A stretch of DNA of 64,000 bases. Origin: Chloroflexota bacterium. GTDB lineage: Bacteria; Chloroflexota; Limnocylindria; QHBO01. Numbering within the stretch: position 1 is the stretch's first letter; each line of letters opens with the position of its first letter. Of the stretch, positions 29,974 through 38,625 are shown piece by piece. A model generated the notes under the pieces. That model searched no databases. It worked only from the letters and a program-made list of their open reading frames with translations, and was not told where the DNA came from. The translations under genes were made by a program, and so were the position numbers. Where the stretch lies: assembly GCA_003243965.1 (NCBI GenBank), contig QHBO01000011.1, positions 1-64,000 on the forward strand, in the 5' to 3' direction.

Positions 29974-31251
29974 GTGCCCGATCGCCTGGTGGCCTTGACC
30001 GACTCCGCACCGCGCTTCGTGGACGCGCTCCCGCGAACGGCCGACGTGGTGGTGGTCGGAGGCGGGGTGGCCGGTTGCGCGACCGCCTTTTTCGCGGCGC
30101 TCAGCGGCCTGGATGTGCTCGTTCTCGAGCGGCGGCCAGCCCTGGCGACCCTCACCACGGCGGCATCCACCGGTGCCTTTCGCCTCCAGTTCGACAACCC
30201 CGACGAGATCGCCCTGGTGCGGGAGGGAATCGAGCTGTTCGACGACTTCGGGTCGCGCAGGGGCCTCGAGGGCTGGGATCTCCGGCTCCGCCACGGTGGC
30301 TACCTCTTCTGCTCGCTGACTCCGGAGACCGTCGACCGCGCCGGGCGACTCGTGGAGCGGCAGCGCGCCTGGGGCCTGACCGATGTCGAGCTGCTGTCCG
30401 GTGACGAGGCCCGGCGTCGCTGGCCATACCTGTCCGATGCGGTCGTCGGGGCGCGCTACCGGGCCGCCGATGGCTGGCTGGACGTCAAGCGGCTCGCGAT
30501 CGGCTACGCGGCTGCGGCGGCCGCCCCGCCACGCGCACCGGGCGCCATCGGCAGCGGCTCAGCGAGCTTCTGCGCCGCAACCGAAGTGCATGGGTTCGCG
30601 ATGAGTGCGGACGGCTCCGCGATCCGCGGCGTGCGCACCTCCCGCGGGGACGTGGCCAGCGAGGCGGTGGTCGTCGCGGCGGGGCCATTCGCTGCCCAGG
30701 TCGCAGCGCTCGCCGGAACACAAATCGCTCTGGAGCCGACCCGTCGCCAGAAGCTGGTGATCCCCGACCTGCCGGAGGCGCCGCCCGGCGCGCCGATGAC
30801 CATCGAGGAGGAGTCGGCCGCCCACTGGCGCCCCGCCCACGCCGGCTGCCTGGCGCTCTTCACCGACGCCCGCGCCCGGCCGACTGCGCCGGCCGACCCT
30901 GTGCCGATCGATGCAGCATGGGCGTTCGGCCTGCTCGATCCGACCTCCGATCACGGGCTGGGCCGCGTGGCGCCGTTCTGGAACGAGCTGTGGGCGCGTG
31001 GCTCGGTGGCCCACTGGTATGTCCAGGCCGGCCAGTACGAGTACACCCCCGACAGGCGTCCGTACCTGGGAGCGGTCGGCTCCATCGGTCCGTCGGGGCT
31101 GTACCTGAACGCGGGCTACAGCGGGCACGGGATCATGGCCTCTGCCGGCGGCAGCCGGCTGGTGGTGGACCAGCTCACCGGGCGGGGCGCAGTGCCCACC
31201 GTCTTTGCCGTGGATCGAGCGCTCCTCGCCGGCGAGCACGACATCCTCTGA
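29974..31251 (+). CDS. FAD-dependent amino acid/amine oxidase (DadA/SoxB-like)
   Basis: A 425-residue DAO-family flavoenzyme. The FAD dinucleotide fold is VVVVGGGVAGCATAFFAALSGLDVLVLE, a second FAD contact is VVVAAGPFAAQVAAL, and the C-terminal YTPDRRPYLGAVG with GLYLNAGYSGHGIMASAGGS is typical of sarcosine/D-amino-acid oxidases. TTAASTGAFRLQF marks the flavin-binding region. The 781-residue track entry includes antisense sequence of the neighbouring gene. The start is GTG 29974. Substrate is uncertain. Confidence 0.88.
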   Translation: MPDRLVALTDSAPRFVDALPRTADVVVVGGGVAGCATAFFAALSGLDVLVLERRPALATLTTAASTGAFRLQFDNPDEIALVREGIELFDDFGSRRGLEGWDLRLRHGGYLFCSLTPETVDRAGRLVERQRAWGLTDVELLSGDEARRRWPYLSDAVVGARYRAADGWLDVKRLAIGYAAAAAAPPRAPGAIGSGSASFCAATEVHGFAMSADGSAIRGVRTSRGDVASEAVVVAAGPFAAQVAALAGTQIALEPTRRQKLVIPDLPEAPPGAPMTIEEESAAHWRPAHAGCLALFTDARARPTAPADPVPIDAAWAFGLLDPTSDHGLGRVAPFWNELWARGSVAHWYVQAGQYEYTPDRRPYLGAVGSIGPSGLYLNAGYSGHGIMASAGGSRLVVDQLTGRGAVPTVFAVDRALLAGEHDIL

Positions 31252-31324: not shown

Positions 31325-33031
31325 ATGGCCGCCAAGCCGGCGATCCTGGCTGTCGATGACGATCCGCCCGTCCTGCGCGCCGTGGAGCGCGACCTCCGTG
31401 CCCGCTACGGCAGGGAGTACCGCATCCTGGCGGCGGGCTCGGGCGAGGAGGCGCTGGAGGTCACGCGTCAGCTGAGTCTGCGCGGCACGGCGGTGGCGCT
31501 CTTCGTCGTCGACCAGCGCATGCCGCGGGTGACCGGCATCGAGTTCCTCTCGCGAGCCGTGGAGCTTCAGCCCGAGGCGCGCCGCGTCCTGCTGACCGCC
31601 TACGCCGATACGGACGTGGCGATTCAGGCCATCAACCAGATCCGGCTCGACCAGTACCTGCTCAAGCCCTGGGACCCACCCGAGGAGCGGCTCTACCCGG
31701 TCCTCGATGACCTGCTCTCCGACTGGTCGGCAGCGTTTCGGCCGCCCTTCGACGGGCTTCGGCTGATCGCACGTCGCTGGGCGCCGCGCGGCCACGCGAT
31801 TCGGGACTTCCTGACCCGCAACCAGGTTCCGTACCAGTGGCTCGACCCTGATACCGATGAGGAAGGCCGGCGGCTGGCGGCCTCTGCGCAGGGAGCGCCC
31901 GCAGGTGCCGGACAGGGTGAGGAACGGGGCGACGGGCAAGGCGACCTGGGCGCGGCAGCGCCGCTCGTCGTCTTTCCGGACGGCGCGGTGCTGCGCGATC
32001 CCTCGAACCGGGAGATCGGCGAGCGGATCGGGCTGCAGACGCGCGCAGCGCTGCCCTTCTACGACCTCGTCATCGTCGGCGGTGGGCCAGCGGGACTGGC
32101 CGCCGCGGTGTACGGCGCAAGCGAGGGACTGAAGACCGTGCTCGTCGAGCGCGAGGCGCCCGGCGGCCAGGCGGGGACCACCAGCCGGATCGAAAACTAC
32201 CTCGGCTTTCCGGCGGGGTTGACCGGCGGCGACCTGGCCCGGCGCGCGCTCGCCCAAGCGCGCCGGCTGGGCGCCGAGATCCTCACCCCCCAGGAGGTGC
32301 GTTCGATCCGACGCGAGGACCCATACCGGATCGTGAAGCTGGAAGACGGCGGCGAGCTGTCGTGCCAGACGGTGGTGGTCGCCACCGGGGTGAGCTACCG
32401 GACGCTCCGCCTGCCGGGCGCCGAGGAGCTCGCGGGTGCGGGCATCTACTATGGGGCGGCCACCACCGAGGCGGCCCTGTACCGCGACCAGGAGGTCGGG
32501 GTGGTGGGTGGCGGGAACTCGGCGGGGCAGGCGGCGGTGTACCTGGCGCGCGTCGCGAAACGCGTCGTGCTCGCGGTTCGCGGCGACACGCTCTCGGGAA
32601 TGAGCCAGTACCTCGTCGACCAGATTGGCGCTGAGCCGCGGATCGAGGTACGTTACCGCGTCGCCGTCACGGCGCTCCGCGGCGAGGGCCACCTCGATGG
32701 GGTGACCCTCGCCTGCGACGGGACGACGCAGGATCTGCCGCTCTCCGCGCTGTTCGTGTTCATCGGGCAGCAGCCGCGCACCGACTGGCTGGATGGGACC
32801 GCCCTCCGCGACCCCGGTGGATTCATCCGGACCGGCAGCGCCCTGCTCGACGGCGAGAAGCCGCCACCCGGCTGGGCGCTTGAACGCGACCCCTTCCTGC
32901 TCGAGTCGAGCGTTCCCGGCATCTTCGCGGCCGGTGACGTTCGCCATCGATCCATCAAGCGAATCGCCAGCGCGGTCGGGGAGGGCTCGATGGCCGTCCA
33001 GTTCGTCCACCAGTACCTGGCCGGCCTGTAG
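31325..33031 (+). CDS. Response-regulator/glutaredoxin-like/thioredoxin-reductase-like fusion protein
   Basis: A 568-residue three-domain protein. Residues 1-125 are a receiver domain with DDD at 11-13, phospho-Asp63 in FVVDQRMPRVTG and Lys114 in LLKPWD. Residues about 145-240 resemble a cysteine-free glutaredoxin-like domain (IRDFLTRNQVPYQWLD, VVFPDGAVLRDPSNREI). Residues 245-568 are a TrxR-like FAD/NAD(P) module (DLVIVGGGPAGLAAAVYG, GVVGGGNSAGQAAVYLA, GIFAAGDVRHRSIKR). The CxxC redox pair of real thioredoxin reductases is replaced by YYGAATTEA. The next gene is a kinase 4 bases away, the likely phosphodonor. Confidence 0.9.
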   Translation: MAAKPAILAVDDDPPVLRAVERDLRARYGREYRILAAGSGEEALEVTRQLSLRGTAVALFVVDQRMPRVTGIEFLSRAVELQPEARRVLLTAYADTDVAIQAINQIRLDQYLLKPWDPPEERLYPVLDDLLSDWSAAFRPPFDGLRLIARRWAPRGHAIRDFLTRNQVPYQWLDPDTDEEGRRLAASAQGAPAGAGQGEERGDGQGDLGAAAPLVVFPDGAVLRDPSNREIGERIGLQTRAALPFYDLVIVGGGPAGLAAAVYGASEGLKTVLVEREAPGGQAGTTSRIENYLGFPAGLTGGDLARRALAQARRLGAEILTPQEVRSIRREDPYRIVKLEDGGELSCQTVVVATGVSYRTLRLPGAEELAGAGIYYGAATTEAALYRDQEVGVVGGGNSAGQAAVYLARVAKRVVLAVRGDTLSGMSQYLVDQIGAEPRIEVRYRVAVTALRGEGHLDGVTLACDGTTQDLPLSALFVFIGQQPRTDWLDGTALRDPGGFIRTGSALLDGEKPPPGWALERDPFLLESSVPGIFAAGDVRHRSIKRIASAVGEGSMAVQFVHQYLAGL

Positions 33032-33035
33032 ACCG

Positions 33036-34448
33036 ATGTCCTACGTCGAACAGCTGCGCGCCACGCCCCTTTTCGCCGGGCTGCCAGATGAGGCTCTCGA
33101 GCTGCTGTGCGCCAACGCGGCGCCGGTGTCGCTCCGCGCCGGAGAGGTGCTGCTCAGCGAGGGCACTCCGGGGGACGCGCTGTTCATCGTGCTCGACGGC
33201 GAGCTGGAGGTCACCAAGCTGAGTGGATCCGCCCAGCTTCCTCTGGCGCGCGTGGGAGCCGGCGCGATCCAGGGCGAGATGGCCGCGCTCGAGGGTGGCG
33301 CGCGGACCGCGTCGGTGACGGCGGTCAGCGATGCGCAGGTGCTCCGCATCCCGCGCTCCGCCTTGCTCGACACCATGGCCTCCGGCCCGGAGGCGGCGCT
33401 CGCGATCGTGCGCACCGTGGTCGGGCGACTGCGCTCCACCGAGGCCCTGCTCCGCCAGCGCGAGAAGCTGGCGGGCCTCGGAACCCTGGCCGCGGGACTC
33501 GCGCACGAGCTCAACAACCCCGCAGCCGCCATTCGCCGTTCCGTTTCCGCCCTCGAGGAGGCGGTCGCCGCCCGTGACGCCGCAACGATCGAGCTCGGGC
33601 CGGACGTGGCGCTCCTCGCCTCATTGCGAGCCGGGCTGCCACCGCCCGGCGATCCGCTGGAGCGGGCGGACCGGGTCGATGCGCTGACCGCGATGCTCTC
33701 GGAGCCGGACGCGGGCGAGGCGGCATCGGCGCTGGTGGCCGCCGGCTGGACGGCCGCGGAGGTGGCGGACGCAGCGGACCGCATCGCTCTGGAGCGCCGA
33801 TCTGCGGCCGTCCGCTGGCTGGCCGCGGGTGCGGGGGTCGCCACCCTGCTCGGCGAGGTGGCGATGGCCAGCGACCGGATCAGCGAGATCGTGGGCGCCG
33901 TCAAGGGATATGCGTACCTCGACCGCGCTCCGGTGCAGCGCGTCGACGTCCGGGCGGGGCTGGAGGACACCCTCGTCATCCTGCGCCACAAGCTGAAGTC
34001 TGGGATCGAGGTGCATCGGGCGTACGCGGATCAGCTCCCCGAGATCGAGGCCTATGGCAGCGAGCTGAACCAGGTGTGGACCAACCTGATCGACAACGCG
34101 GTGTACGCCATGAATGGCGTCGGTGACATCTGGCTGCGGGTGGAGCGCGTCGACCGAGACACAACCGGGCAGGCAGAGCCGTCGGAAGCGGCGGCGGCCG
34201 GCGTGCGGGTCAGCATCTGCGACAGCGGCCCCGGCATCCCATCCGAGGTGATGGCGCGTCTGTTCGAGCCGTTCTTCACCACCAAGCCGCCTGGCGTCGG
34301 CAGCGGTCTCGGGCTGCACATCAGCCACAACGTTGTCATTCGTCACGGCGGCAGGATCGAGGTCGAGTCGGAGCCGGGACGGACGTGCTTCCACATCACG
34401 CTGCCGCCGGTCGTCGCCAGGCGGCCGTCCGCACCGACGGGCTCGTGA
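33036..34448 (+). CDS. Cyclic-nucleotide-binding-domain sensor histidine kinase
   Basis: A 470-residue soluble kinase. Residues about 8-125 are a CRP/cNMP-like domain (LFAGLPDEALELL, LFIVLDGELEVTK, GEMAALEGGARTASV). The kinase core has LAAGLAHELNNPAAAIRRS (phospho-His), NLIDNAVYAM, ICDSGPGIPSEV and FFTTKPPGVGSGLGLHISHNVV. It has no membrane segment. It starts at ATG 33036, four bases after the REC/TrxR fusion, so the two are one operon and probably one phosphorelay sensing a redox or nucleotide signal. Confidence 0.9.
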   Translation: MSYVEQLRATPLFAGLPDEALELLCANAAPVSLRAGEVLLSEGTPGDALFIVLDGELEVTKLSGSAQLPLARVGAGAIQGEMAALEGGARTASVTAVSDAQVLRIPRSALLDTMASGPEAALAIVRTVVGRLRSTEALLRQREKLAGLGTLAAGLAHELNNPAAAIRRSVSALEEAVAARDAATIELGPDVALLASLRAGLPPPGDPLERADRVDALTAMLSEPDAGEAASALVAAGWTAAEVADAADRIALERRSAAVRWLAAGAGVATLLGEVAMASDRISEIVGAVKGYAYLDRAPVQRVDVRAGLEDTLVILRHKLKSGIEVHRAYADQLPEIEAYGSELNQVWTNLIDNAVYAMNGVGDIWLRVERVDRDTTGQAEPSEAAAAGVRVSICDSGPGIPSEVMARLFEPFFTTKPPGVGSGLGLHISHNVVIRHGGRIEVESEPGRTCFHITLPPVVARRPSAPTGS

Positions 34449-36240: not shown

Positions 36241-36921
36241 CTACGGCGTCGAGCCGCCCAGCCTGGAGGAGGCGGCTGAGCGGCGCAGCCCGGCGCGCGC
36301 AAAGCCGTGGTCCTGTGCATACGACACCAGCGCATGCCTGCCCTGCACGCCGAGCTTCTGTGCGCTGTTGGCAAGGTGCCTGCGCACGGTGTGCACGCTG
36401 ATGCCGAGCGCGCCGCCGATGCGGCTCGCGGTCTGCCCGTCGGCGAACAGGCTCACCACCTCGCGCTCTCGGGGCGTCAGGGTGGCCCCTTCCCGCAGCC
36501 AGCGGAGCCCGTCCTCGATCACCACGCCGGCGATGCTGCTGTGCAGGAAGCGGCCGCCGTGCGCCACCGCGCCGATGGCGGTCAGCAGCTCCTCCGAGCT
36601 GGCGCCCTTGACGAGGTAGCCTGCCGCGCCGGCCAGCAGTGACTGGCGGACCGTCTCCGCATCGTCATACATCGACAGCACCAGCACCCGGGCGTCCGGA
36701 GCGCACGCCCGCAGCGCCTCGATCAGCGGCACCCCGTCCTCGCTGCCGAGGGCGACATCGAGCACGATCACGTCGGGCCGCAGCGAGCGCGCCGCCTCGA
36801 GGGCGGCTTCCCGGGTTGCCGACTCGCCCGCCACGCTGAGGCGTGGATCCCGCTGGATCACCAGTCGCAGTCCCTCGCGGACGACCGGATGGTCGTCGAC
36901 CAGGAGCACGCGGATCGTCAT
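36241..36921 (-). CDS. NarL/FixJ-family response regulator
   Basis: A 226-residue regulator. The receiver has LLVDDHPVVREGL, phospho-Asp in VIVLDVALGSEDG, LVLSMYDD and GYLVKGASSEEL. The C-terminal LuxR helix-turn-helix is LTPREREVVSLFADGQTASRIGGALGISVHTVRRHLANSAQKLGV. The ATG overlaps the kinase stop as ATGA. Near the start, spacing and strand make it the output partner of the HisKA_3 kinase. Target genes are unknown; the divergent cupredoxin gene upstream of the kinase is a candidate. Confidence 0.93.
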   Translation of the reverse strand: MTIRVLLVDDHPVVREGLRLVIQRDPRLSVAGESATREAALEAARSLRPDVIVLDVALGSEDGVPLIEALRACAPDARVLVLSMYDDAETVRQSLLAGAAGYLVKGASSEELLTAIGAVAHGGRFLHSSIAGVVIEDGLRWLREGATLTPREREVVSLFADGQTASRIGGALGISVHTVRRHLANSAQKLGVQGRHALVSYAQDHGFARAGLRRSAASSRLGGSTP

Positions 36922-38027
36922 GCGCGCGACGCGCCGATCAGCGACGCCTCATCGGCAGCGCGTGGCGCGGGGGATTGCGTGCTGGGCGGAACGAAGAGCC
37001 GCACCCGAGTCCCGCGTCCTGGCTCGCTCTCGACCGATAGCGCAGCGCCGATGGCGGCCGCCCGCTCGTGCATCCCCGCCAGGCCGATACGCCGCGGGTC
37101 TGCGGACCGGGGGTCGAATCCGATCCCGTCGTCCTCCACCACCACGGTGACGCCGTCGGACCGGCGGGTAAGCGAGAGTCGGATGCGCGTGGCTGCGGCA
37201 TGGCGGGTGGCGTTGCTGAGGGACTCCTGCGCGATGCGGTACACCTCCAGGACCACCGAAGGCGCCAGATGCGCGGCGCCGACACTGTCGAGGGATGCCT
37301 CCACGTTGTCACCGGAGGCCGCCGCCAGCTCACGCAGGGCGCTCGCCAGGCCGCGCTGGGCGAGCCGCGGCGGCCGGACACGCTCGGCGGCGGAGCGCGC
37401 CTCGGCCAGGGCGGTGGAGGCCAGGGACTTTGCCCGGGAGAGCTGCTGGCGCCCATCCGCGGCCTCGGTCGCGGTCGCGACGCCGTCGAGTGCCAGCGAC
37501 AGGGCGGTGAGCGTCTGGCCGATGCCATCGTGCAGGTCGCGCGCCAGGCGGCGGCGCTCTTCCTCCTGGGCGTCGACCAGGCGATCCCGCGCCCTTCGGT
37601 ACAGGCCGGCGTAGCGGCGAGCAGCCAATAGCTCGCGGTCGGCCATGCCCGCGACGAGGATCGCGATCGCGAACATCAGCGGCCACTCGGTGAGATCGAT
37701 GGTCGCCACCCGGTGACCGGCGGCAAGCAACGCGTACGCAACCAAGGCCACGGAGCTGGCTGCGATCCGCTCCAGGCAGACGCGCCGCCCAAACACGAAG
37801 GCCTCCACGGTGAGGATCAGGAAGACCCCGTGGAACAGCGCTTCTGGCGGCCCGAGCTGGGCGAACGCGGCAGCCACCAGCACGATCGCCGAGAGGTCGA
37901 GGCCCAGGAGCGCGCGTCGCCCATTCAGCTTTCGCAACCGACCGCGAAGTGCGCCCCGGGCAAACGCCTCAGGATCGATCCGACGCATCCGCCGTCGGAT
38001 GGTCGCTGCGTAGTGGAGATTGCTCAC
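36918..38027 (-). CDS. NarX/LiaS-type sensor histidine kinase
   Basis: A 369-residue kinase. The N-terminal half holds four or five hydrophobic helices (LLGLDLSAIVLVAAAFAQL, LFHGVFLILTVEAFVFG, SSVALVAYALLAAG, WPLMFAIAILVAGMAD) with no large periplasmic domain, so it senses in or at the membrane. HisKA_3 is EEERRRLARDLHDGIGQTLTAL and the ATPase has ESLSNATRHAAATR and EDDGIGFDP with GLAGMHERAAAIG. GTG 38027 follows GGAGGG and is preferred over the 141-residue longer track start. Confidence 0.9.
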   Translation of the reverse strand: MSNLHYAATIRRRMRRIDPEAFARGALRGRLRKLNGRRALLGLDLSAIVLVAAAFAQLGPPEALFHGVFLILTVEAFVFGRRVCLERIAASSVALVAYALLAAGHRVATIDLTEWPLMFAIAILVAGMADRELLAARRYAGLYRRARDRLVDAQEEERRRLARDLHDGIGQTLTALSLALDGVATATEAADGRQQLSRAKSLASTALAEARSAAERVRPPRLAQRGLASALRELAAASGDNVEASLDSVGAAHLAPSVVLEVYRIAQESLSNATRHAAATRIRLSLTRRSDGVTVVVEDDGIGFDPRSADPRRIGLAGMHERAAAIGAALSVESEPGRGTRVRLFVPPSTQSPAPRAADEASLIGASRA

Positions 38028-38139
38028 CCGCGGACCCTCCGAATGATCACCGGTGACTATAGGACCCCTCCCACGCCGGGGCCACCCTGAACGCGTGGCC
38101 CTCCATCCGGAGGTACCGCATCTGCACGGGAGTTGATCG

Positions 38140-38625
38140 ATGCGCAGCGCGATGGCGCTCGTCCCCAGTGGCCGGTCCGGCGGGGCGGCCGCATCTCCTC
38201 TCCTCATGCTGGTCCTGCTCGCCTCCGCGTGCGGCAGCGCCGGCGCCCAGCCGACCGCCACGCCCGGCATCAGCGGGAGCTCCACCGCTGTGAACGTCGC
38301 GCTCCGCGAGTTCAAGGTGGAGTTGAGCAGCACCACCTTTCCCGCCGGATCGATCACCTTCAATGTGAAGAACGCGGGGACCGTCCAGCATGAGTTCGTC
38401 GTCATGCGCACCACGCTCCAGGCGACGGCCCTGCCGACCACCAGCGCCAAGACCGAGGTGGACGAGAACTCCAGCTGGCTGGAGCGGATGGGGGAGGCGG
38501 ATCACATCGATCCGGGTGCGACCAAGTCCTTCACGGTGACGCTGCCGGCAGGCGCATACGTCGGGTTGTGCAACGTCCCGGGGCACTATGGGTCGGGGAT
38601 GCGCGTCGCGATCACGGTTCAATAG
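38140..38625 (+). CDS. Cupredoxin-like copper lipoprotein
   Basis: A 161-residue exported protein. LLMLVLLASAC ends in a lipobox with Cys31. The mature domain is plastocyanin-like: FPAGSITFNVKNAGTVQHEFVVMR supplies the first copper His, and AYVGLCNVPGHYGSGMRVAITVQ supplies Cys, His and Met. These four residues are the type I copper ligand set. It probably carries electrons at the outer membrane face. ATG 38140 follows GGGAGTTGATCG. It is divergent from the NarX-type kinase. Confidence 0.85.
   Translation: MRSAMALVPSGRSGGAAASPLLMLVLLASACGSAGAQPTATPGISGSSTAVNVALREFKVELSSTTFPAGSITFNVKNAGTVQHEFVVMRTTLQATALPTTSAKTEVDENSSWLERMGEADHIDPGATKSFTVTLPAGAYVGLCNVPGHYGSGMRVAITVQ

Follow-up and report, generated by a model that had tools for sequence, protein, structure and literature searches.

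A receiver, glutaredoxin-fold and thioredoxin-reductase-fold fusion without CxxC, paired with a cNMP-domain histidine kinase, in Chloroflexota and other phyla

Response regulators joining a receiver to a thioredoxin reductase are mentioned in a census of archaeal two-component systems, as a "Mycobacterium-like" combination (PMC5847659). They share with the protein analysed here a receiver fused N-terminally to a thioredoxin-reductase-like enzyme; the census passages on them deal with the domain combination only, and a Cys-free glutaredoxin-fold domain, the loss of CxxC and a kinase partner are features of our family beyond those passages (PMC5847659). In public annotation the receiver form is called "FAD-dependent oxidoreductase", and the literature searched, which included few subscription papers, yielded no functional study of the family, of its signal or of its electron acceptor. 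Our protein is encoded in a stretch of 64,000 nucleotides of a Chloroflexota bacterium (contig QHBO01000011.1 of assembly GCA_003243965.1, positions 1 to 64,000, hereafter the window), next to a kinase gene (Table 1). The receiver–reductase fusion and its pairing with the kinase are real and not unique to this genome: they belong to a widespread, already recorded, uncharacterised family.

Table 1. Features of the gene pair, in window coordinates.
Feature	Position	Strand	Remarks and basis
Receiver / glutaredoxin-fold / thioredoxin-reductase-fold protein, 568 aa	31325..33031	+	ATG 31325, stop 33029-33031
Receiver domain, ~residues 1-137; D63 phospho-acceptor, acidic D11/D12, T91, K114	31325..31735	+	Pfam Response_reg 5e-15
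Glutaredoxin-fold middle domain, residues 141-243, Cys-free	31745..32053	+	Predicted fold, residue inspection
Thioredoxin-reductase-fold flavoprotein, residues 244-568; FAD motif GGGPAG, NAD(P) motif GGGNSA, YYGAATTEA replacing CxxC	32054..33028	+	Pfam Pyr_redox_2, Foldseek TrxR matches, alignment with the genome's canonical TrxR
YYGAATTEA, residues 375-383, CxxC position	32447..32473	+	Alignments
cNMP-domain histidine kinase, 470 aa, H157 in AHELNNP	33036..34448	+	ATG 33036, stop ends 34448

The original prediction had read the first gene as a receiver, a glutaredoxin-like and a thioredoxin-reductase-like domain, with D63 as the receiver Asp, no Cys in the middle domain and YYGAATTEA in the place of CxxC, the whole being paired over 4 bases with a cNMP-domain kinase. 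Profiles, predicted fold, alignments and gene coordinates bear out each of these points, and the domains, D63, the loss of CxxC, the Cys-free middle domain and the kinase pairing are conserved across phyla. Pfam places Response_reg at residues 7-119 (5e-15) and Pyr_redox_2 at 246-554 (8.6e-35). The protein contains two cysteines only, C347 and C464, so that the middle domain (~141-243) is devoid of them; this domain also carries, in the alignment, a loop insertion of its own at about residues 189-210. YYGAATTEA aligns with the CATC of the canonical thioredoxin reductase encoded in this genome and is preceded by one extra residue; from the established chemistry of the E. coli enzyme, we take A378 and T381 to occupy the positions of the catalytic Cys pair, and E382 that of the catalytic Asp. 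Compared with the canonical enzyme, a C-terminal insertion holds W517 and R521. The two-domain FAD and NAD(P) fold is present (Pfam, predicted structure, Foldseek); the identity of a canonical thioredoxin reductase is ruled out by the missing CxxC and by an NCBIfam TRX_reduct score of 236.6 bits, below the cut-off of 343.45. A gene for a DAO-type FAD oxidoreductase (30019-31251, + strand) precedes the reductase gene, with 73 bp between them, and the window also encodes, at 36241-38450 on the - strand, an ordinary pair of a NarL-type response regulator and a HisKA_3 histidine kinase.

The ATG of the kinase lies 4 bases beyond the reductase stop. Its Pfam matches are cNMP_binding at residues 31-115 (1.3e-19) and HATPase_c at 343-458 (2.5e-22), together with a weak HisKA at 149-175 (17.3 bits for a cut-off of 26.9). 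H157 is a His in all 74 kinase relatives aligned, and the protein has both the H-box His and the HATPase domain of a histidine kinase. The cNMP pocket motif, GE[LM]..LE...R.A[ST]V, looks complete in the kinases of the window's clade, with GEM..R in the window kinase and its close relatives; adenylate/guanylate cyclase domains are encoded in the same genome. From these sequences cAMP is a possible signal, for the window's clade only.

No Pfam profile matches the middle domain of the reductase. Modelled alone (pLDDT 81, a moderate model confidence), it matches by fold the mycobacterial Mrx1 (E 1.9e-4), cGrx1 and NrdH-redoxins; as modelled, the middle domain is a glutaredoxin fold without active-site Cys. 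The structure of the full protein, predicted from 44 relatives, reaches a pLDDT of 90 overall, and its reductase domain matches thioredoxin reductases in Foldseek, AhpF being also among the top structural matches. By TM-score, the FR-state 5mh4 (TMt 0.89) and some NADP-bound structures (5usx_B, 0.91) stand above most others (about 0.65), so that the NADPH-facing (FR) conformation of thioredoxin reductase is among the best superpositions. As a weak indication, such a predicted pose would suit an enzyme with no need to swing toward a disulfide.

A genome scan confirmed at least 582 relatives of the reductase. The best 80 of them are full length and about 48-73% identical (tblastn); from their record titles, they come from Chloroflexota, Cyanobacteriota, Acidobacteriota, Bacteroidota, Actinomycetota, Pseudomonadota, Deinococcota, Gemmatimonadota, Verrucomicrobiota-type bacteria and one Nitrososphaeraceae archaeon MAG. 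Full-length relatives thus span about ten phyla. These homologues, with the same three domains, rule out chance or a mis-called frame. The fusion is present in complete genomes as well as close family members, which rules out an artefact of MAG assembly. A comparison of co-occurrence across genomes, proposed along with the original prediction, came out in its favour: in 73/101 full-length loci a kinase gene of the same orientation lies no more than 300 bp away, downstream or upstream, the gene order being reversed in Bacteroidota. In the window's phylum, 19 of 251 genomes have the kinase (E 1e-40 or better), and every one of them also encodes a reductase of this kind, three of these reductases being cut by contig ends; reciprocally, 16 of the 19 genomes with a full-length reductase have the kinase at the same threshold. 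Besides the kinase, no neighbour was kept when the neighbourhoods of the loci were compared. A wider operon was rejected on this ground: the PFK, amidotransferase and PLP-enzyme neighbours are common to locus L001 only, and the DAO oxidoreductase, encoded upstream of the pair, to L095 only. The pair is plasmid-borne in three loci (L090, L086, L087). On the Tsukamurella plasmid an S-(hydroxymethyl)mycothiol dehydrogenase gene adjoins it, and a "low temperature requirement protein A" is encoded near it on both the Nostoc and the Deinococcus plasmids. Genes for UBP-type zinc-finger proteins recur, in several phyla, as neighbours of the pair, of the kinase or of a relative lacking the receiver.

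The residues expected for function are near-invariant. In an alignment of 81 sequences, D63 is an Asp in 80, and D11, D12, T91 and K114 are found in 81/81; so are Y376 and E382, within the former active site. The FAD and NAD(P) glycine motifs, W517 and R521 are likewise invariant family-wide. No receiver-form relative in the alignment has CxxC at the lost catalytic columns, and a replacement Cys elsewhere in the protein was also rejected, none being invariant among the 81 sequences. The invariance of the cofactor motifs, Y376, E382, W517 and R521 indicates that the protein is not a decaying pseudoenzyme.

What this analysis adds to the already recorded fusion is the history of the family. In the window's phylum, 16 stand-alone glutaredoxin–reductase fusions retain intact WCxxC and CATC-type motifs; in the receiver-fused, the cNMP-fused and a few bare forms both redox motifs are gone. 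In a maximum-likelihood tree built on the reductase module, the CxxC-less proteins make up one clade (support 100/100) on a long branch, with an invariant Glu at the catalytic Asp position, and the intact fusions fall in another group (support 93/88). CxxC being absent throughout the clade, its target is not a classical thioredoxin, and here again the original prediction stands. The nearest outgroup of the clade is L135 (support 95/83), which has a WCPDC glutaredoxin and, at the reductase site, CAAS instead of CATC, i.e. a half-lost CxxC. Within the clade the receiver forms are mostly in one group, while the cNMP forms appear in two places. One further protein (L112, 1459-2706) carries a WCTDC glutaredoxin domain on a CxxC-less reductase; it is ruled out as an evolutionary intermediate because it is nested deep among the receiver forms, and it rather looks like a later domain swap.

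On these domains, residues, gene pairing and phylogeny we base a reading in which the phosphotransfer, the direction and gating of the control, the nucleotide and the acceptor are what we infer. The pair would be a two-component system with a redox enzyme as its response regulator, that is a phosphorylation-controlled NAD(P)H:FAD reductase giving its electrons to a non-disulfide acceptor; we put its probability at roughly one half. The kinase would sense a signal via its cNMP-fold domain and autophosphorylate at H157; the phosphate would then pass to D63 of the receiver, as suggested by the conserved residues and the pairing. Through the catalytically dead glutaredoxin-fold domain, a putative structural or docking module, the phosphorylated receiver may activate or inactivate the C-terminal flavoprotein. 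That phosphorylation controls the redox reaction, as the original prediction proposed, is thus an interpretation of the sequences. From its motifs the flavoprotein is expected to reduce FAD with a hydride taken from NAD(P)H, and the electrons could go on to ferredoxin/flavodoxin, a quinone, O2 or a partner protein, as in the thioredoxin-reductase-like ferredoxin-NADP reductases; it is the loss of both disulfide motifs that leads us to propose a non-disulfide acceptor. In addition, receiver and cNMP domain interchange at the same site, which makes the N-terminal domain a probable input, replaceable by another, and the flavoprotein the probable output. Some observations count against this reading: 28/101 loci have no kinase of the window type within 300 bp (some lie at contig ends, some show other arrangements), and the canonical NADP motif HRRxxxR has kept a single arginine out of three (RGDTLS). 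Likewise, the Arg of the cNMP pocket, retained in close relatives of the window kinase, is absent from most other phyla, so that a cNMP is unlikely to be a signal conserved across the family.

The flavoprotein might on the other hand be a sensor rather than an output, its FAD/NAD(P)H state altering the phosphorylation of the receiver or the activity of the kinase and thereby reporting the redox state to the kinase and to other regulators. Flavoproteins can serve as redox sensors, and it fits this view that no acceptor gene consistently adjoins the reductase, only the kinase does so. However, the cNMP-fused sister forms have neither a receiver nor a kinase at their sites, which means that the module has been retained where no phosphorelay would receive its report; we regard the sensor role as unlikely.

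Quite unlikely, in our opinion, is that the pair targets or works with a small zinc-finger protein of the UBP type, which would be reduced or bound by the flavoprotein. The UBP gene adjoins the pair in Tsukamurella (L090, 7137-7487) and lies near it in L033, L058, L064 and L105 and in genomes G016 (C110) and G026 (C104); it adjoins the kinase in G144 (C108) and a receiver-less relative in G231 (C108). But the single UBP gene of the window's genome is unlinked, on another contig (L085), and genomes G008 and G099 have the pair and show no UBP gene. Nothing specific on this link appeared in the literature searched.

A single Cys close to the flavin could also sustain thiol chemistry, the situation of the YpdA-type bacillithiol disulfide reductases: column 386, eight residues past the first lost catalytic position, is a Cys in 57/81 sequences, and column 347 in 52/81. 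The window protein nevertheless has a Tyr at 386, like about 20 of the 81, and as no Cys is conserved in all of them we find this improbable. Least probable is that the reductase fold, having lost both disulfide motifs, is a non-catalytic scaffold binding FAD and NAD(P) structurally only, since its cofactor motifs and the former active-site Y376 and E382 are invariant across phyla.

Returning to the phosphorylation-controlled reductase, a wider generalisation can be advanced tentatively. There may be a widely distributed class of response regulators in which phosphorylation switches a disulfide-free NAD(P)H flavin reductase as the output module, with a single origin from a dithiol glutaredoxin–reductase that lost both redox motifs; the same module would be placed also under direct control of a cNMP domain, and sometimes be tied to a UBP zinc-finger protein. 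The pair of kinase and flavoenzyme is present in hundreds of genomes, its catalytic residues being near-invariant. If the two-component reading is true, they hold a direct switch from phosphorelay to redox enzyme, without transcription, and a sense is given to a family whose sister form, in which the disulfide motif is absent, bears the name of a thioredoxin-disulfide reductase.

Among known systems, AhpF resembles our protein by its thioredoxin-fold domains N-terminal to a thioredoxin-reductase-like domain; it differs in retaining CxxC motifs, its electrons passing by disulfides (PMC8945050). The ferredoxin/flavodoxin NAD(P) reductases of the thioredoxin-reductase type, which also have this fold without CxxC and lead electrons from NAD(P)H through FAD to a non-disulfide acceptor, are our working analogy, although their sequence similarity to the window protein is much lower than that of canonical thioredoxin reductase and they have no fused domains. 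Closer are the stand-alone glutaredoxin–thioredoxin reductase fusions, which share both C-terminal domains, and their order, with the window protein and are about 40% identical to it; unlike it, they keep the WCxxC glutaredoxin and the CATC reductase, and lack the receiver. Finally, the form named by NCBI "cyclic nucleotide-binding domain-containing thioredoxin-disulfide reductase" has, like the window protein, the CxxC-less module of glutaredoxin fold and reductase (about 45-51% identical), but its cNMP domain is fused directly, with no receiver and, in the records examined, no adjacent kinase.
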